From: Synergistaceae bacterium
GTDB lineage: Bacteria; Synergistota; Synergistia; Synergistales; Aminobacteriaceae
NCBI GenBank assembly: GCA_017450125.1
Contig: JAFSWZ010000034.1
Location: 1-64,000 of the forward strand
Reading direction: 5' to 3'
Length of the DNA: 64,000 nucleotides
Shown: one piece after another, positions 35,301 to 40,703 of the stretch
Layout of the letters: every line of letters starts with the position of its first letter
Numbering within the stretch: position 1 is the first letter of the stretch
The notes under the pieces: model-generated
Told to the model about the DNA's origin: nothing
The model's input: the letters and a program-made list of their open reading frames with translations, nothing else
Databases searched by the model: none
Position numbers and translations under genes: made by a program

Positions 35301-35308
35301 TCTTTGTG

Positions 35309-35344
35309 CGCAGACTCGTAAAACTCTTGCGGGTCTGCGTTTTT
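35309..35344 (+). terminator. Terminator after the TRAP operon
   Basis: CGCAGACTCG (35309-35318) pairs with CGGGTCTGCG (35330-35339), followed by TTTTT. The convergent amidohydrolase gene ends just after it. Confidence 0.85.
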
Positions 35345-35349
35345 CGCGT

Positions 35350-36075
35350 TTACAGCATGAAATTGTCCTGAGTGATGCGCCTGAAATCTTCCGCGCCTAA
35401 TGCTTCCGATGCTTCATCGATTCTCTGCCGGTAATACTCTTCCGCCGGAATGTCGTAGTAGTACCTCATGACGGGAAAATCACTTCCCCACAGCACACGT
35501 GAGATCATCCCTTCATCCCTGAGCCTCACAATGTTTTTCACCGGCATGAACGCGGTATCAGCCCATGCATTGGGACACTCCTTCATGACGGCTATGCACT
35601 CATCGATAGGGCGGCCGTGCGCGAGGATGACTCTTACGTCAGGGAAATCACGGCAGATGTTCATGTAAACTCCGGCCTCGCAGGCATCCCTTCCTCCTGT
35701 GTGGAACATTACGGGAAGGTTTCTGTCCCTAGCGATGTCAAATATGCGGCGGATTTCCTTACCGTCAGGATTCCAGTCCTGATGGTAGCCGTGAACCTTC
35801 AGCCCAGCAAACTCACGGAACAAGTACGGTTTCAAGCCCCGCGAGTGCCTGAGCATTCCCGGCGACACCCACAGGAACGGGACGGCTCTCCCCTCACTCA
35901 GAGAGACCGTCTCCTCAATCTCGCGCCGAACTTTACGGAATGGAACGCTGCCCGTTGAAGTTGAGGAGAAATAGTACCGTTCAACGTTCAGAGCCTTCAT
36001 GCCCTCCGTGATTTCTTCGGGAGAGAAATACAGCTCGCCCTTGAAATATCCCGTGTGTACGTGAACATCAAACAT
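35350..36075 (-). CDS. Amidohydrolase family protein in the RiPP operon
   Basis: The 241-residue metal-dependent hydrolase has a TIM-barrel of the amidohydrolase-2 type. It has an N-terminal HVHTG (residues 5-9), HTGG, VILAHGRP and WGSDFPV, the usual metal and catalytic positions. Its ATG (36075) overlaps the last base of the radical SAM stop, so the two are translated together. In such a setting it could process or detoxify a product, or act on a small-molecule cofactor. That role is a guess, since amidohydrolases are not a standard part of known radical SAM RiPP systems. Confidence 0.75.
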   Translation of the reverse strand: MFDVHVHTGYFKGELYFSPEEITEGMKALNVERYYFSSTSTGSVPFRKVRREIEETVSLSEGRAVPFLWVSPGMLRHSRGLKPYLFREFAGLKVHGYHQDWNPDGKEIRRIFDIARDRNLPVMFHTGGRDACEAGVYMNICRDFPDVRVILAHGRPIDECIAVMKECPNAWADTAFMPVKNIVRLRDEGMISRVLWGSDFPVMRYYYDIPAEEYYRQRIDEASEALGAEDFRRITQDNFML

Positions 36076-37502
36076 TATTGTTTCCCAGCTTTCCTGTATT
36101 CTTCAACAAGCCTCTTGTTCAGGAACGCCACATCACAGAAATGTTTGCTGACCTCAAAGATTGAGCCCGTCTCGTTGAGATTCCTGACCATGCACATGGC
36201 GCAGAAAGGTTTTGCTTCGCACGCCATGCACTTCGGGAAATCCCGCCACTTCACAGCCCGCAGTTTCTTCAAGGCCTCCGAGTTATTCCACACATCGGCG
36301 ACAGTCTGAGCGTGGGCATTGCCCAGAGGCCAGCCCTGAAACCCGGAGCACGGGTAAAACTCCCCGTTTGCCGCAACACACATCGAGTCTAGTCCCGCGC
36401 CGCAGATATGCTCGTCAGGATTCAGCGGTGAAGGCTCAATGTCCGCGTCAAGGATTGTCCTGTACTGTACATCGTAGCTGATTATGTCCTTGAGAAGTAG
36501 CTCTGTCTCATCGAGCGTCAGCCTGTTATCGAGGTTGTCCGTTGTCCCGTCAATCCTAGCCATCATGATATAGTCGGTGTAGCCCTTGATGCCGTGAGAA
36601 TATGCCCAGTCAAGAACGTCCTTATATGATGCATAAGTTCTCCTCATTGTCGGACAGCTTATCTGTACGGGAACATCAGCGGCTATCAGGCGTTCGAGGC
36701 TGGCGATTGTCTTTGCGTGGGAGCCCGGGAGCTGAGTGATATAGTCATGCTCTCCCGGGTTCATGCTGTACACGGAGGCTTGCAGAAGGTCTATGTTTGC
36801 TTCCTTGAGGGCAGAGATTATCTCGTCAGTAAGAAGCGTAAGATTGCTCAGCACGGAGATTGAGAAGTCATTTTCCCGTGCTCGCCTGAGAATGGGGATG
36901 AAGTCCTCGTGAAGAAGACACTCACCGCCCGAAAATGTAACCTTCAGCGTTCCCATTTCCGCGAGCTGGTCGAGGATGCTCAACACAAGGTCAGTCTCCA
37001 TGTCGTGAAAATTCCTTGTTCCCGGCAGGTAGCAATGTCGGCATCTCTCGTTGCACCTGCTCGTCAGTTCGAACTGGAACGCGAAGAGGTGCGGATCATT
37101 CCTGAAGTATTGTCCGAGAAATTCTGTCGTGGCCTGAGCGTCAGGCGATGCATCAAGTGCTGTAAGCGGTGCTGTCTTCTTATCCTTATGGGAGTAACTG
37201 AAGCGGGGCATCTTTACGCTGATTTCCTCCTCCGTCATCCCGGAAACAACAAAACTTTCAGCCTCAAGCTCATTCACGAACTCTGCGAAGTCTTTCGCAA
37301 GTTTTTCGCGTTCCGCACCCGTATAAACCTTCATGAGGCTGTCAATTATTTCGTCTATGGTCTTGGGTTTGCGTGTGAACTGCTGGAGAAAGATTTTGCC
37401 GTTGATGTCATAGATTCTGTCCTGCTTTGTGAGCTGGTTGACAATGTACCCAATATCCCCGAACGTTCGGACAAATGAATCATTAGCGAGACATACTAAC
37501 AA
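36075..37502 (-). CDS. Radical SAM/SPASM peptide maturase with N-terminal RRE
   Basis: The 475-residue enzyme has a PqqD-like peptide-binding domain (RRE) at residues 13-90. The radical SAM motif C150-x3-C154-x2-C157 in TSRCNERCRHCYLPG binds the S-adenosylmethionine-cleaving [4Fe-4S] cluster. The C-terminal SPASM domain has Cys clusters around CGAGLDSMC, FYPCSGF, CMACEAKPFCAMC and KHFCD for auxiliary clusters. These are the features of RiPP maturases that form thioether or carbon-carbon cross-links. The start is TTG 37502, with AGGAGG (37511-37516) eight bases upstream. The Cys-containing precursor lies just upstream, behind a terminator. The cross-link type is not predictable. Confidence 0.9.
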   Translation of the reverse strand: MLVCLANDSFVRTFGDIGYIVNQLTKQDRIYDINGKIFLQQFTRKPKTIDEIIDSLMKVYTGAEREKLAKDFAEFVNELEAESFVVSGMTEEEISVKMPRFSYSHKDKKTAPLTALDASPDAQATTEFLGQYFRNDPHLFAFQFELTSRCNERCRHCYLPGTRNFHDMETDLVLSILDQLAEMGTLKVTFSGGECLLHEDFIPILRRARENDFSISVLSNLTLLTDEIISALKEANIDLLQASVYSMNPGEHDYITQLPGSHAKTIASLERLIAADVPVQISCPTMRRTYASYKDVLDWAYSHGIKGYTDYIMMARIDGTTDNLDNRLTLDETELLLKDIISYDVQYRTILDADIEPSPLNPDEHICGAGLDSMCVAANGEFYPCSGFQGWPLGNAHAQTVADVWNNSEALKKLRAVKWRDFPKCMACEAKPFCAMCMVRNLNETGSIFEVSKHFCDVAFLNKRLVEEYRKAGKQ

Positions 37503-37522
37503 TTATTATTCCTCCTGTGAAC

Positions 37523-37557
37523 AAAAAAAATTTCCCGGAGGATAAACTCACTCCGGG
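37523..37557 (-). terminator. Terminator between RiPP precursor and maturase
   Basis: On the minus strand CCCGGAG (37557-37551), a ten-base loop and CTCCGGG (37540-37534) are followed by AAATTTTTTTT. Such internal terminators let the precursor transcript accumulate above the maturase. Confidence 0.9.
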
Positions 37558-37567
37558 GCTGGCTTGT

Positions 37568-37687
37568 TTAGTTCTCGAATTCGCACTTATGGCAAGAAAA
37601 AGTGTTGCTGTACTCTTCGGGGCAGCCTGCGACGAATGACCTTTTCCTCGCGCTCTTTGCTACTGTCTTCGGTTTGCTGTATGCCAT
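37568..37687 (-). CDS. Candidate RiPP precursor peptide, 39 residues with three Cys
   Basis: A short open frame starts at ATG 37687 with a consensus Shine-Dalgarno AAGGAGGTG (37703-37695) seven bases upstream. The leader (residues 1-20) is rich in Lys, Arg and Ser. The C-terminal core ends GCPEEYSNTFSCHKCEFEN, with Cys 22, 32 and 35. Position directly before a radical SAM/SPASM enzyme with an RRE, plus the intervening terminator, make it the likely substrate. It is not assigned to a named RiPP family here. Whether a leader is cleaved is not known, as no Gly-Gly protease site or transporter is seen nearby. Confidence 0.8.
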   Translation of the reverse strand: MAYSKPKTVAKSARKRSFVAGCPEEYSNTFSCHKCEFEN

Positions 37688-37907
37688 TGAAATTCACCTC
37701 CTTCTTGTAATGCCATCCATTGACGAAAATTTAAGCACACAACTATCAATCATCTTATTTCCCGAACTATGCTATAATACATGCGGGACAAGATAAGACC
37801 GCTGGCACACGCCAAAAAGTCATGTGCTTTTTCAACTTTGGTGAGTATGATTATAGCATGAAAACTTGTCCTTTTGTTGTTTTGTGAAAAATTAATTTTC
37901 CGCATCC

Positions 37908-38615
37908 TTAGAACATGACTCCCGAGACCAGATACACCCCTCCCCAAATAAGAGCAATCCCGCACAGAACGTTCACGACTTTCACAGCCCAGTACGTCAG
38001 GCTGTCTTTGCCGCTGTCCAGAAACTCCGAGAAAATCTGCGCAAACGTCCCCGCCCCGACAAGCACCGCACAATACCCCAGAGCGTAGCACAGCACCAGC
38101 AGGATACTTCCCGCCATTCCGCCCGAAGCGTCGGACATCGCGAGCGACAGCACGGGACTCACGTAGCCTATACTGCACGGCCCGACCGCCAGCCCCGACA
38201 CAACGCCGAGCACAACAGCACCCTTGAGGCTGCGGCTTTCCGTTCCTGTCCCTCCTGAACCGAGCGCAAAGAACTTCACGCGGATTATCCCGATAAGGTG
38301 AAGCCCCATCACGATGAACACTGCGGCAGTTATCAGCGTCAGGAAACGTTCATAGCCGCCGAGCAGCATACCTATTCCCGACGTTATGAACCCCACAAGC
38401 AGGAGGTTCACGATTATTCCCAGACAGAACGCGCACGAAATCTTGAACGCGTTCCAGTGCGACGGGCTGTCAGTGTTCGCGACGTAACCCACAACCAGAG
38501 GGACGGTGCTTATACCGCAGGGGCTGAGCAGTACGCTGGCGATTCCCCAGAGGAACGCGCCGAGAAACTTCACAGCTCCCGACGCGTACATAAAGCGGAA
38601 TATACTACTGACCAT
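37908..38615 (-). CDS. CcdA/DsbD-like thiol-disulfide transporter
   Basis: The 235-residue membrane protein has six predicted helices. Two conserved Cys-containing helices, LLSPCGISTVPLVVGY and GLAVGPCSIGYVSPVL, are the redox pair that carries electrons from cytoplasmic thioredoxin outward in the CcdA/DsbD family. It overlaps the upstream FGE-flavodoxin gene by 11 bases and is the last gene of a four-gene minus-strand operon. Delivering reducing power to the exported proteins encoded with it is the likely role. Confidence 0.85.
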   Translation of the reverse strand: MVSSIFRFMYASGAVKFLGAFLWGIASVLLSPCGISTVPLVVGYVANTDSPSHWNAFKISCAFCLGIIVNLLLVGFITSGIGMLLGGYERFLTLITAAVFIVMGLHLIGIIRVKFFALGSGGTGTESRSLKGAVVLGVVSGLAVGPCSIGYVSPVLSLAMSDASGGMAGSILLVLCYALGYCAVLVGAGTFAQIFSEFLDSGKDSLTYWAVKVVNVLCGIALIWGGVYLVSGVMF

Positions 38616-39945
38616 TATTCAGCCACCTTGCAACATCTTCCTTGAGCCTTCCGCCGCCGGAATAATGCACGGAGAGTCCTTCAGTGATGTTTGCCTTCGG
38701 TGCGAGCTTGGCTATTGCGGTGAGTGTCTGCCCGAACCTTCCGCCCCCGTGTGAGCAGAACGGCATTATAGTTTTGCCGGAAAAATCGTACTCCTCAAGG
38801 AATGAGGCAATCGGCATCGGGATGCTCGCCCACCAGTTGGGATAGCCAAGAATAATCACGTCGTACTGCTCGAAATTCTCGACGTGAGTCCTGAGCTTCG
38901 GACGTGCCTGCCTGTGCTGGTCTCTCTGTGCTTCGCGTAAAACTGTGTTGTAGTTCTCGCTGTAGGGTTTCTCCGGCGAAATCTCGAAGATGTCCGCCCC
39001 CGTCTGCTTCTGAATCTCGTACGCTATTCCCTGCGTGTTCCCGCTCCACGTGAAGAACGCGATTAACGCCTTCCCGCTGGTCTTGGCCGGTTCCTGCACA
39101 GCCTGAGAGGTCAGCGTCCCCGTCCCGACTGCTCCGCGCGCGAGCCTGAAGCCGACATTGTAGAGCCTGCGTTCTTGAGGAGCTGCCGCACGGTACGCAC
39201 TGCGCATGTTCTTCGCAAAGTCATTCCAGCCCCCGCCCCTGTACACTCTGCGCGTACCTGTCTCCGGCCCTGCAGGAAGTGAAGGGTAATATGGTGCGTA
39301 AATGTCCCAGCACCATTCGCCAACGTTGCCGTGCATGTCGTACAGTCCCAGCCTGTTCGGAGGGAAGCTCCCGACATTGACGGTAGTAGCGCGATAGATG
39401 CCCGGTTTCGTCGTCAGCTTGCTCTGCGAAAAGTAATTCTCCTCTATCTCGTAGGGATAATGCCCGTAGAAATTCGCCTCGTCCGCACCTATCGAGTGTT
39501 CAAGGTTGAAGGGTGTTGACGTTCCAGCCCTGCAGGCGTACTCCCATTCTGCCTCTGTCGGGAGACGGTAGCCGTCTGCGGCCCAGTCCCACGTAACGCG
39601 TTCGCCCTCTATCTTATACGCAGGAGCAAGACCTTCCGCCGCGCTCTTCGCGTTGCAGAACATTACGGCTTCAAGCCACGTAACATTCTCGACGGGCAAA
39701 CTGTCTCCCCTGAAGCTCGAGGGGTTGCCGTTCATCAGCGCGGAGTACTCCTTCTGCGTAACCTCGTACGGAGAGATGCTGAAGTCCTGCACCGTAACTT
39801 CATGCTGTGTCTCGTCGCTGCTCCGCCAGTTCTCGGACTCGGGGCTGCCCATCAGGAACTTTCCGCCCTTCACGCTCACCATTTCGTCAGCAAACGCACA
39901 GCCAGACATCAGCGCAACAAGTGCAAAGATGATTAATGCCCGCAT
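38605..39945 (-). CDS. Exported fusion of FGE-sulfatase (SUMF1) domain and flavodoxin
   Basis: The 446-residue protein has a lipoprotein signal (LVALMSGCAFA). The formylglycine-generating-enzyme-like domain covers about residues 23-265 (GGKFLMGSPESE, RLPTEAEWEYACRAG, YDMHGNVGEWCWD, YRGGGWNDF, GFRLAR). A flavodoxin domain follows (about 285-446, with IAFFTWSGNTQGIAYEIQKQ as FMN phosphate loop and GYPNWWASIPMPI). Flavodoxins are usually cytoplasmic, so an exported one fused to a C-type-lectin-like FGE domain is odd. Start ATG 39945 overlaps the previous stop (TAATG). The FGE-like domain may be structural only, since the catalytic Cys pair is not evident. Confidence 0.85.
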   Translation of the reverse strand: MRALIIFALVALMSGCAFADEMVSVKGGKFLMGSPESENWRSSDETQHEVTVQDFSISPYEVTQKEYSALMNGNPSSFRGDSLPVENVTWLEAVMFCNAKSAAEGLAPAYKIEGERVTWDWAADGYRLPTEAEWEYACRAGTSTPFNLEHSIGADEANFYGHYPYEIEENYFSQSKLTTKPGIYRATTVNVGSFPPNRLGLYDMHGNVGEWCWDIYAPYYPSLPAGPETGTRRVYRGGGWNDFAKNMRSAYRAAAPQERRLYNVGFRLARGAVGTGTLTSQAVQEPAKTSGKALIAFFTWSGNTQGIAYEIQKQTGADIFEISPEKPYSENYNTVLREAQRDQHRQARPKLRTHVENFEQYDVIILGYPNWWASIPMPIASFLEEYDFSGKTIMPFCSHGGGRFGQTLTAIAKLAPKANITEGLSVHYSGGGRLKEDVARWLNNGQ

Positions 39946-40703
39946 TACTCTGCCGCCTTGTTGATGCAGGTTATTGCGTTGAGGCTTCTCGGGTAGCCGA
40001 TGTACGGCACGCACTGCGCAACAACGTCCAGCAGGAACTCCCTGTCGTTGCCCATGTTCATATTGCCTTTGGCGTGGCCGATGAGCTGGGGTTCACAGCC
40101 TCCCTGTGCCGCAATGTAGCAGAACGTAATCATCTCGCGTTCACGGAGCGTCAAGCCTTTGCGCGTGTAGTAGTCCCCGAAGCAGTTGCCCGCAAGAAAA
40201 CGGTTGATGACTCTCCTATCCTCAGGAGCATTCTCCACGAAGCCGCGCATCACTTCGCCGAAAATCTCTATCTGCGTGTCATTCCCGGCCTTCACGCGGG
40301 TTTCCGGCGTTGTCGTTGAAGCTGGAGGCAGAGGAAGGGAGATTCCTTTTTCCGCGAAAACTTCGTTGGCGGCCTTGAGGAAGGGACGTGTGCGTCCTAT
40401 GCCGAGATACGCCGTGCCCTGATAGATGACTTCCTTCACCTCTGAGGGAGTCAGTCCTGCATCGAGTGCCTCAGGCAGAACTGCCCTGAACTCGTCGACA
40501 CCCTGACAGCCAAGCAGCGTCGCGACAATCGCCATGTACCTCGTGCGTGCATCCAGCTTCGACTGGGCAGGCACTTCCTCAGAAGCGAAACGGCCGAAAA
40601 ACTCCGCGAACTCCGGGTCTGTCTCCCTGAACTCCTCAACGTTCGCGAACACACATGAACTCATCACCATAACCATAATCACCCCGAAAAGTATTGTTCT
40701 CAT
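39945..40703 (-). CDS. Exported tandem carboxymuconolactone decarboxylase/AhpD-like protein
   Basis: The protein has about 252 residues, with a signal segment (ILFGVIMVMVMSSCVFA) that may be a lipoprotein site, and two CMD/AhpD-type helical domains (about residues 45-120 and 150-250). The first contains LLGCQGVDEF and the second ITFCYIAAQGGCEPQLIGH. AhpD-like domains use a CxxC pair and a His for disulfide reduction. Only single Cys residues are seen at the expected helix here, so activity may differ. Start is ATG 40703 (GTG 40706 also possible), one base after the upstream gene's stop. It belongs to the exported redox operon. Confidence 0.8.
   Translation of the reverse strand: MRTILFGVIMVMVMSSCVFANVEEFRETDPEFAEFFGRFASEEVPAQSKLDARTRYMAIVATLLGCQGVDEFRAVLPEALDAGLTPSEVKEVIYQGTAYLGIGRTRPFLKAANEVFAEKGISLPLPPASTTTPETRVKAGNDTQIEIFGEVMRGFVENAPEDRRVINRFLAGNCFGDYYTRKGLTLREREMITFCYIAAQGGCEPQLIGHAKGNMNMGNDREFLLDVVAQCVPYIGYPRSLNAITCINKAAE

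Follow-up and report, generated by a model that had tools for sequence, protein, structure and literature searches.

A conserved cysteine-bearing peptide and its radical SAM/SPASM enzyme as a probable undescribed RiPP subfamily in Synergistota, Coriobacteria and on conjugative plasmids

Results

The precursor locus

The window (the whole stretch of DNA that we analysed, 64,000 nucleotides long) belongs to a Synergistaceae gut bacterium of a Synergistota genus, whose genome comprises 2.16 Mb in 43 contigs. Three neighbouring genes encode a peptide of 39 residues, a radical SAM enzyme (the maturase) and an amidohydrolase (Table 1). The first-pass annotation had proposed that the short frame, with its three cysteines and strong ribosome site, precedes a radical SAM/SPASM enzyme with an RRE. 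The sequence bears out the former and domain matches the latter, and the terminator that it placed after the precursor is present as a hairpin and a U8 tract. That annotation had overlooked the amidohydrolase, the module's mobility and the existence of a wider family. Homologous precursors are also preceded by AGGAGG-type ribosome sites.

Table 1. Features of the precursor locus, in window coordinates
Feature	Position	Strand	Basis or details
Precursor peptide gene (39 aa)	37568..37687	-	ORF 37687-37568, sequence MAYSKPKTVAKSARKRSFVAGCPEEYSNTFSCHKCEFEN, homologue conservation, selection
Precursor leader, about residues 1-21	37625-37687	-	motif AYSKPKTVAKSA
Precursor core, about residues 22-39	37571-37624	-	holds Cys22, Cys32, Cys35
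Ribosome-binding site AAGGAGGTG	37695..37703	-	7 nt 5' of the precursor ATG
Terminator-like hairpin and U8, between precursor and maturase	37523..37557	-	folding, relatives' loci
Maturase, 475 aa, TTG start	36075..37502	-	RRE, radical SAM and SPASM domain matches
Maturase ribosome site AGGAGG (GGAGG)	37511-37516	-	sequence
Maturase RRE, N-terminal	~37212-37502	-	PqqD/RRE domain match
Maturase radical SAM, CxxxCxxC at residues 150/154/157	~36603-37079	-	domain match
Maturase SPASM, seven Cys (367, 385, 425, 428, 434, 437, 456)	~36135-36404	-	domain match
Amidohydrolase PF04909, 241 aa	35350..36075	-	start overlaps maturase stop (TAATG)
Inserted module (precursor, maturase and amidohydrolase)	35301..37907	.	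empty sites in G082, G083

Conservation of the peptide

The peptide occurs in exactly nine of 188 Synergistota genomes (E ≤4e-7). In exactly these genomes a complete or almost complete maturase of at least 73% identity lies directly downstream of it, and across all 188 genomes the co-occurrence of the peptide with a close maturase has a Fisher p of 1.5e-15. The close relatives identified in a contig collection are metagenome-assembled Synergistaceae, from goat gut and red deer and including one Fretibacterium-labelled assembly.

In the close copies the leader, MAYSKPKxxAKSAxKSSFVAGC, is almost invariant, and its pN/pS of 0.24 indicates purifying selection. The core is different: the stretch from C22 to CxxCE differs in both length and sequence. 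All listed precursors keep the first cysteine and have a second one downstream, with varying residues in between. Judged from these sequences, constant cysteines with changing residues between them are what one would expect if the donors are fixed and the acceptors variable.

Outside the close group the leader is recognisable as the motif Y-x-K-P-x-[VIT], in short ORFs upstream of maturases that are about 32-44% identical. Within the genus such distant maturases are found in G083, G068, G048 and as a second copy in G046. In Coriobacteria there are five, of which three share one peptide and two another. Others lie on an IMG/VR contig and on conjugative plasmids, which are of IncF type in E. coli and Salmonella and include one from Photobacterium. 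The ORFs upstream of them begin MMSYRKPKVLVKS, VKYQKPVVLLSS, MEYAKPQVVAESK, MQYTKPTILKAEK, MSYSKPTVLAKSS and MIYKRPEILAQGT. In G048 the ORF starts MKYRKPVVV, and a one-base shift breaks the frame before the cysteine part (L059 1938-2050), through either assembly error or decay.

Precursor and maturase adjoin in 9/9 close genomes and in all intact distant loci that we examined. The leader regex combined with at least two cysteines picks out 15 short ORFs in about 383 kb of locus sequence, each directly upstream of a family maturase, and 1 in 17,778 ORFs of the shuffled window, a background measured solely on examined loci and shuffles. A chance ORF at 37687-37568 is ruled out by conservation, purifying selection and this background. 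The first-pass annotation had held that its reading of the frame as a RiPP precursor would fail if related maturases had no such peptide upstream. Homologous short peptides do stand beside them, in three bacterial phyla, and conservation and selection support the reading. We count against it that metagenome assemblies are among the sources of the Synergistota and Coriobacteria copies.

The plasmid-borne copies

Escherichia, Salmonella and Photobacterium plasmids encode peptides that are 100% identical. Between E. coli and Photobacterium the same 38 residues are encoded with 17 synonymous and 0 non-synonymous differences, and the maturases are 77% identical. In PLSDB the operon is found on five E. 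coli plasmids. PLSDB lists no gene for the precursor in 7/7 plasmid records, its gene table itself being incomplete. A search of E. coli complete genomes gave no match to the plasmid operon, which probably reflects the records in that collection, and a search of phages found no relative of the maturase. The family is rare in the class of the Coriobacteria, with members in 5 of 398 genomes.

Recombinase genes lie near the plasmid copies. In G068 and in the second G046 copy, tRNA-Lys and tRNA-Glu genes stand directly upstream of a VKYQKP-type precursor (L057 7646-7806, L058 5724-5894). Both kinds of neighbour fit horizontal transfer.

In G047 (L026 1354-2652) the precursor is intact and the maturase is missing about 43 RRE residues; the enzyme may be dead, or that part of the RRE may be dispensable there. 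In G086 (L068, ~8.18-8.51 kb in flipped coordinates) a maturase remnant of about 108 residues lies between insertion-like genes, with no precursor.

The terminator between precursor and maturase

The hairpin has the stem CCCGGAG...CUCCGGG (37534-37557), followed by AAA and then by U8 (37523-37530). The region folds with an energy of -17.2 kcal/mol (z -2.66 against dinucleotide shuffles), and the hairpin occurs once in the whole 2.16-Mb genome. A consensus terminator scan did not flag it, because the U-run begins 3 nt past the stem and the scan tolerates 2. Close relatives retain the stem CCCGGAG/CTCCGGG, with one mismatch in G066. In most distant loci unrelated hairpins occupy the same position; the terminator between the genes, as had been proposed for the window, is a conserved layout in the close group and most distant loci. 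It is plausible that the terminator boosts the level of the precursor. That hairpins are retained or replaced supports a role in holding the enzyme below its substrate.

The maturase

The RRE of the maturase matches PF05402 at 25.3 bits (cut-off 23.4), and Radical_SAM and SPASM are also matched. In the AF2 model (pLDDT 88) the N-terminal domain consists of beta-strands and then three helices and is winged-helix-like. Every family member retains CxxxCxxC and the seven SPASM cysteines, apart from one copy that is truncated at its C-terminus. By analogy, the seven SPASM cysteines are expected to bind two auxiliary clusters, one with an open site, as in RumMC2 and CteB (PMC8172795).

The nearest solved relatives by sequence are SkfB (E 3e-10) and PqqE. 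By fold (Foldseek) they are SuiB, CteB and SkfB, with SuiB at the top. The maturases score far below the cut-offs of every NCBIfam equivalog; for the window's enzyme the values are 72 bits against 340 for PapB, the ranthipeptide maturase, 60 against 850 for AlbA, and 63 against 625 for StsB.

In a phylogenetic tree the nine close enzymes group together (100/99), and G083 joins them (95/92). A second clade (100/100) comprises the enzymes with GRPC peptides, from E. coli, Photobacterium, the IMG/VR contig, Coriobacteria B and G048 (whose peptide shows GRPC in its second frame). The deepest branching order is less secure. Core type thus tracks enzyme clade, CxxC in one and GRPC in the other, and we therefore see one leader code with a diverged core and perhaps diverged chemistry.

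The amidohydrolase and the three-gene module

In a profile search the amidohydrolase occurs in 10 of 188 genomes, namely the nine with the precursor and G059, an assembly of 64% completeness in which the contig stops before the position of the maturase. The same search shows it overlapping the maturase in G061. Ankyrin-type or related genes intervene in G070 and G074, and in G074 and G087 the three genes lie together at a different genomic place. The model of the amidohydrolase (pLDDT 82) has an ACMSD-like metal-dependent fold with HxH, HTG, AHG and GSD motifs. Its best Foldseek matches are ACMSD-type decarboxylases and uncharacterised hydrolases, with no RiPP peptidase among the best, and a sequence search of the PDB returned no match. 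Going by this model, the reaction could be hydrolysis or decarboxylation.

The module sits between a ccdA-like gene and TRAP-permease genes, which in G082 and G083 are about 70 bp apart. Given these empty sites, the module of about 2.6 kb was gained as one unit. Within it there is no transporter, regulator or immunity gene.

We considered the upstream ccdA-like and FGE/flavodoxin genes as parts of the system and rejected them: ccdA is present in 33 of 43 genomes of the genus and the module in 9, and in G074 and G087 the module is elsewhere. The frame at 38605-40014 of the window (- strand) combines an FGE/sulfatase-modifying-factor and a flavodoxin part behind a signal-like N-terminus, and it recurs in many genomes of the genus.

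At GRPC-type loci of G048 (L059 3484-5763) and two Coriobacteria (L061 9256-11664 and L062 10230-12638, flipped) a UvrA-like ABC protein follows the maturase. This protein possibly serves self-protection, in which case the product might be directed at DNA.

Discussion

We propose that 37687-37568 encodes the precursor of an undescribed RiPP subfamily, a reading to which we give a probability of roughly 0.7. It starts from features that can be read in the DNA: the conserved pair, the coding selection, the domain architecture, the conserved hairpin and a three-gene module gained as a unit. From these we infer leader-RRE binding, attenuation, a cross-link, the reaction of the amidohydrolase and a role for the product. 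By analogy with known systems, the YxKP leader would dock on the N-terminal RRE of the enzyme encoded next to it, much as the leader of CteB binds its RRE as a beta-strand (PMC8326336). The radical SAM/SPASM enzyme would then modify the cysteine-bearing core, whose cysteines would react with a carbon radical, so that sulfur would be joined to the alpha, beta or gamma carbon of a neighbouring residue in a thioether. A peptidyl cysteine can ligate the auxiliary cluster of CteB (PMC8172795). The hairpin would keep expression of the enzyme under that of the precursor. The amidohydrolase would act on the peptide or product, by hydrolysing the leader or an amide or by a decarboxylation as in ACMSD. 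Thioether formation is the likeliest outcome, at somewhat better than even odds, an expectation drawn from the SkfB-, CteB- and SuiB-like architecture and the conserved cysteines. The cross-link is not readable from the sequence because no acceptor residue is conserved family-wide. Also weighing against our reading are the presence of SuiB among the close fold matches, the lack of exporter and immunity genes in the module, and the RRE deletion in G047 beside an intact precursor.

How does this system relate to known ones? SkfB and SkfA, of the sactipeptide sporulation killing factor, also combine an RRE-radical SAM enzyme in cis with a short cysteine peptide encoded just upstream. However, SkfB carries a single [2Fe-2S] cluster in a twitch domain (PMC8326336), whereas the maturase here keeps seven SPASM cysteines. 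The skf cluster has protease, thioredoxin and export genes (PMC8172795), which the module lacks, and SkfA has no recognisable similarity to our precursor. The ranthipeptide systems CteB/SCIFF and PapB likewise pair an RRE-rSAM-SPASM enzyme with a Cys-rich precursor, and CteB is a top fold match. The Synergistota core has a Cys-x3-Glu (C32xxCE); C32-x3-E36 is compatible with a ranthipeptide but is not kept in the wider family. The precursor matches no SCIFF or other precursor model.

Two further comparisons concern the amidohydrolase. PurAH/BotAH is an amidohydrolase-superfamily enzyme in a RiPP pathway as well, and PurAH removes the follower peptide in that of bottromycin (PMC10885120). The best structural matches of our enzyme are of other kinds, however, and cleavage of a leader or follower by it would be conjectural. 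Plasmid pTs417 of Thiodictyon syntrophicum carries an RRE-rSAM (31%) and an amidohydrolase homologue (26%, E 9e-18) in one apparent operon. In contrast to the module, that cluster (L085 3641-9014) adds a second rSAM, YcaO and TfuA. We found no YxKP peptide upstream, and in the tree its rSAM branches outside our family.

We rejected filing the system with the sactipeptides, given the lack of a precursor match and the AlbA and StsB scores, and with the ranthipeptides, given 0 matching precursor families and the PapB score. That the core belongs to no known class, as the first-pass annotation suspected, agrees with the NCBIfam and Pfam precursor models, none of which matches any of 13 family members. 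Two Pfam matches (E above 0.07, to unrelated families) are due to chance, and Rfam gave no convincing match. We found no description in the open full-text literature, though an earlier mention in supplements or subscription papers is possible, and the main text of RRE-mining papers does not mention the combination. We would class the system as a new subfamily among the radical-SAM RiPPs; it does not amount to a novel type of system.

One could also argue that the same precursor-maturase pair performs a different chemistry, that is, C-C or C-O cross-linking, epimerisation or oxidation, and that the cysteines act as cluster ligands or form disulfides. SuiB, which makes streptide from SuiA, is a C-C cyclase that forms a Lys-Trp bond, and it is the best full-length Foldseek match of the maturase, RRE included; the core alignment has no conserved Lys/Trp pair. 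The varying acceptor, the low PapB score and the plasmid cores, in which GRPC is retained and the cysteine is surrounded by prolines and arginines, point the same way as the SuiB match. Against this, the core residue that all members conserve is cysteine, and the nearest solved sequence, SkfB, forms a Cys-to-Met thioether (PMC8326336, PMC8172795). We regard a non-thioether chemistry as a minority prospect, at perhaps one chance in four.

A somewhat less probable alternative concerns the product, which could be not an antibiotic or bacteriocin but a conserved small molecule inside the cell, a cofactor or signal built on a PQQ- or mycofactocin-like scaffold and freed by the amidohydrolase. In its favour, genes for transport or immunity are absent from the module, an enzyme resembling hydrolases or decarboxylases is inherited along with the other two genes, and the plasmid peptide is identical in three genera, unlike a diversifying bacteriocin. 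A fixed cofactor, however, would hardly be made from a core as variable as that of Synergistota between C22 and CxxCE; exporters are possibly encoded elsewhere, and no dependent oxidoreductase is co-located. Very improbable is a regulatory leader peptide, a Cys-sensing attenuator acting on the downstream terminator: a short cysteine-containing ORF and then a terminator do stand just before an enzyme gene, but the leader and not the Cys codons is the most conserved part, selection is purifying at the amino-acid level, the enzyme carries an RRE, and YxKP is kept across phyla despite unrelated terminators.

Returning to the RiPP precursor, we tentatively suggest a broader picture: a self-contained, transporter-less, horizontally mobile RiPP module with a YxKP leader and at least two core chemistries (CxxC and GRPC), whose product might act intracellularly or upon plasmid or DNA processes and would not be a secreted bacteriocin.

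Current annotation misses the subfamily, as the maturase is labelled only 'radical SAM protein' and the precursor is unlisted. The locus offers an undescribed natural product for production and testing. Since E. coli and Salmonella carry a copy on conjugative plasmids, both chemistry and role are testable in laboratory E. coli. The common leader with two core types also provides a natural test that separates leader recognition by the RRE from the chemistry of the core.
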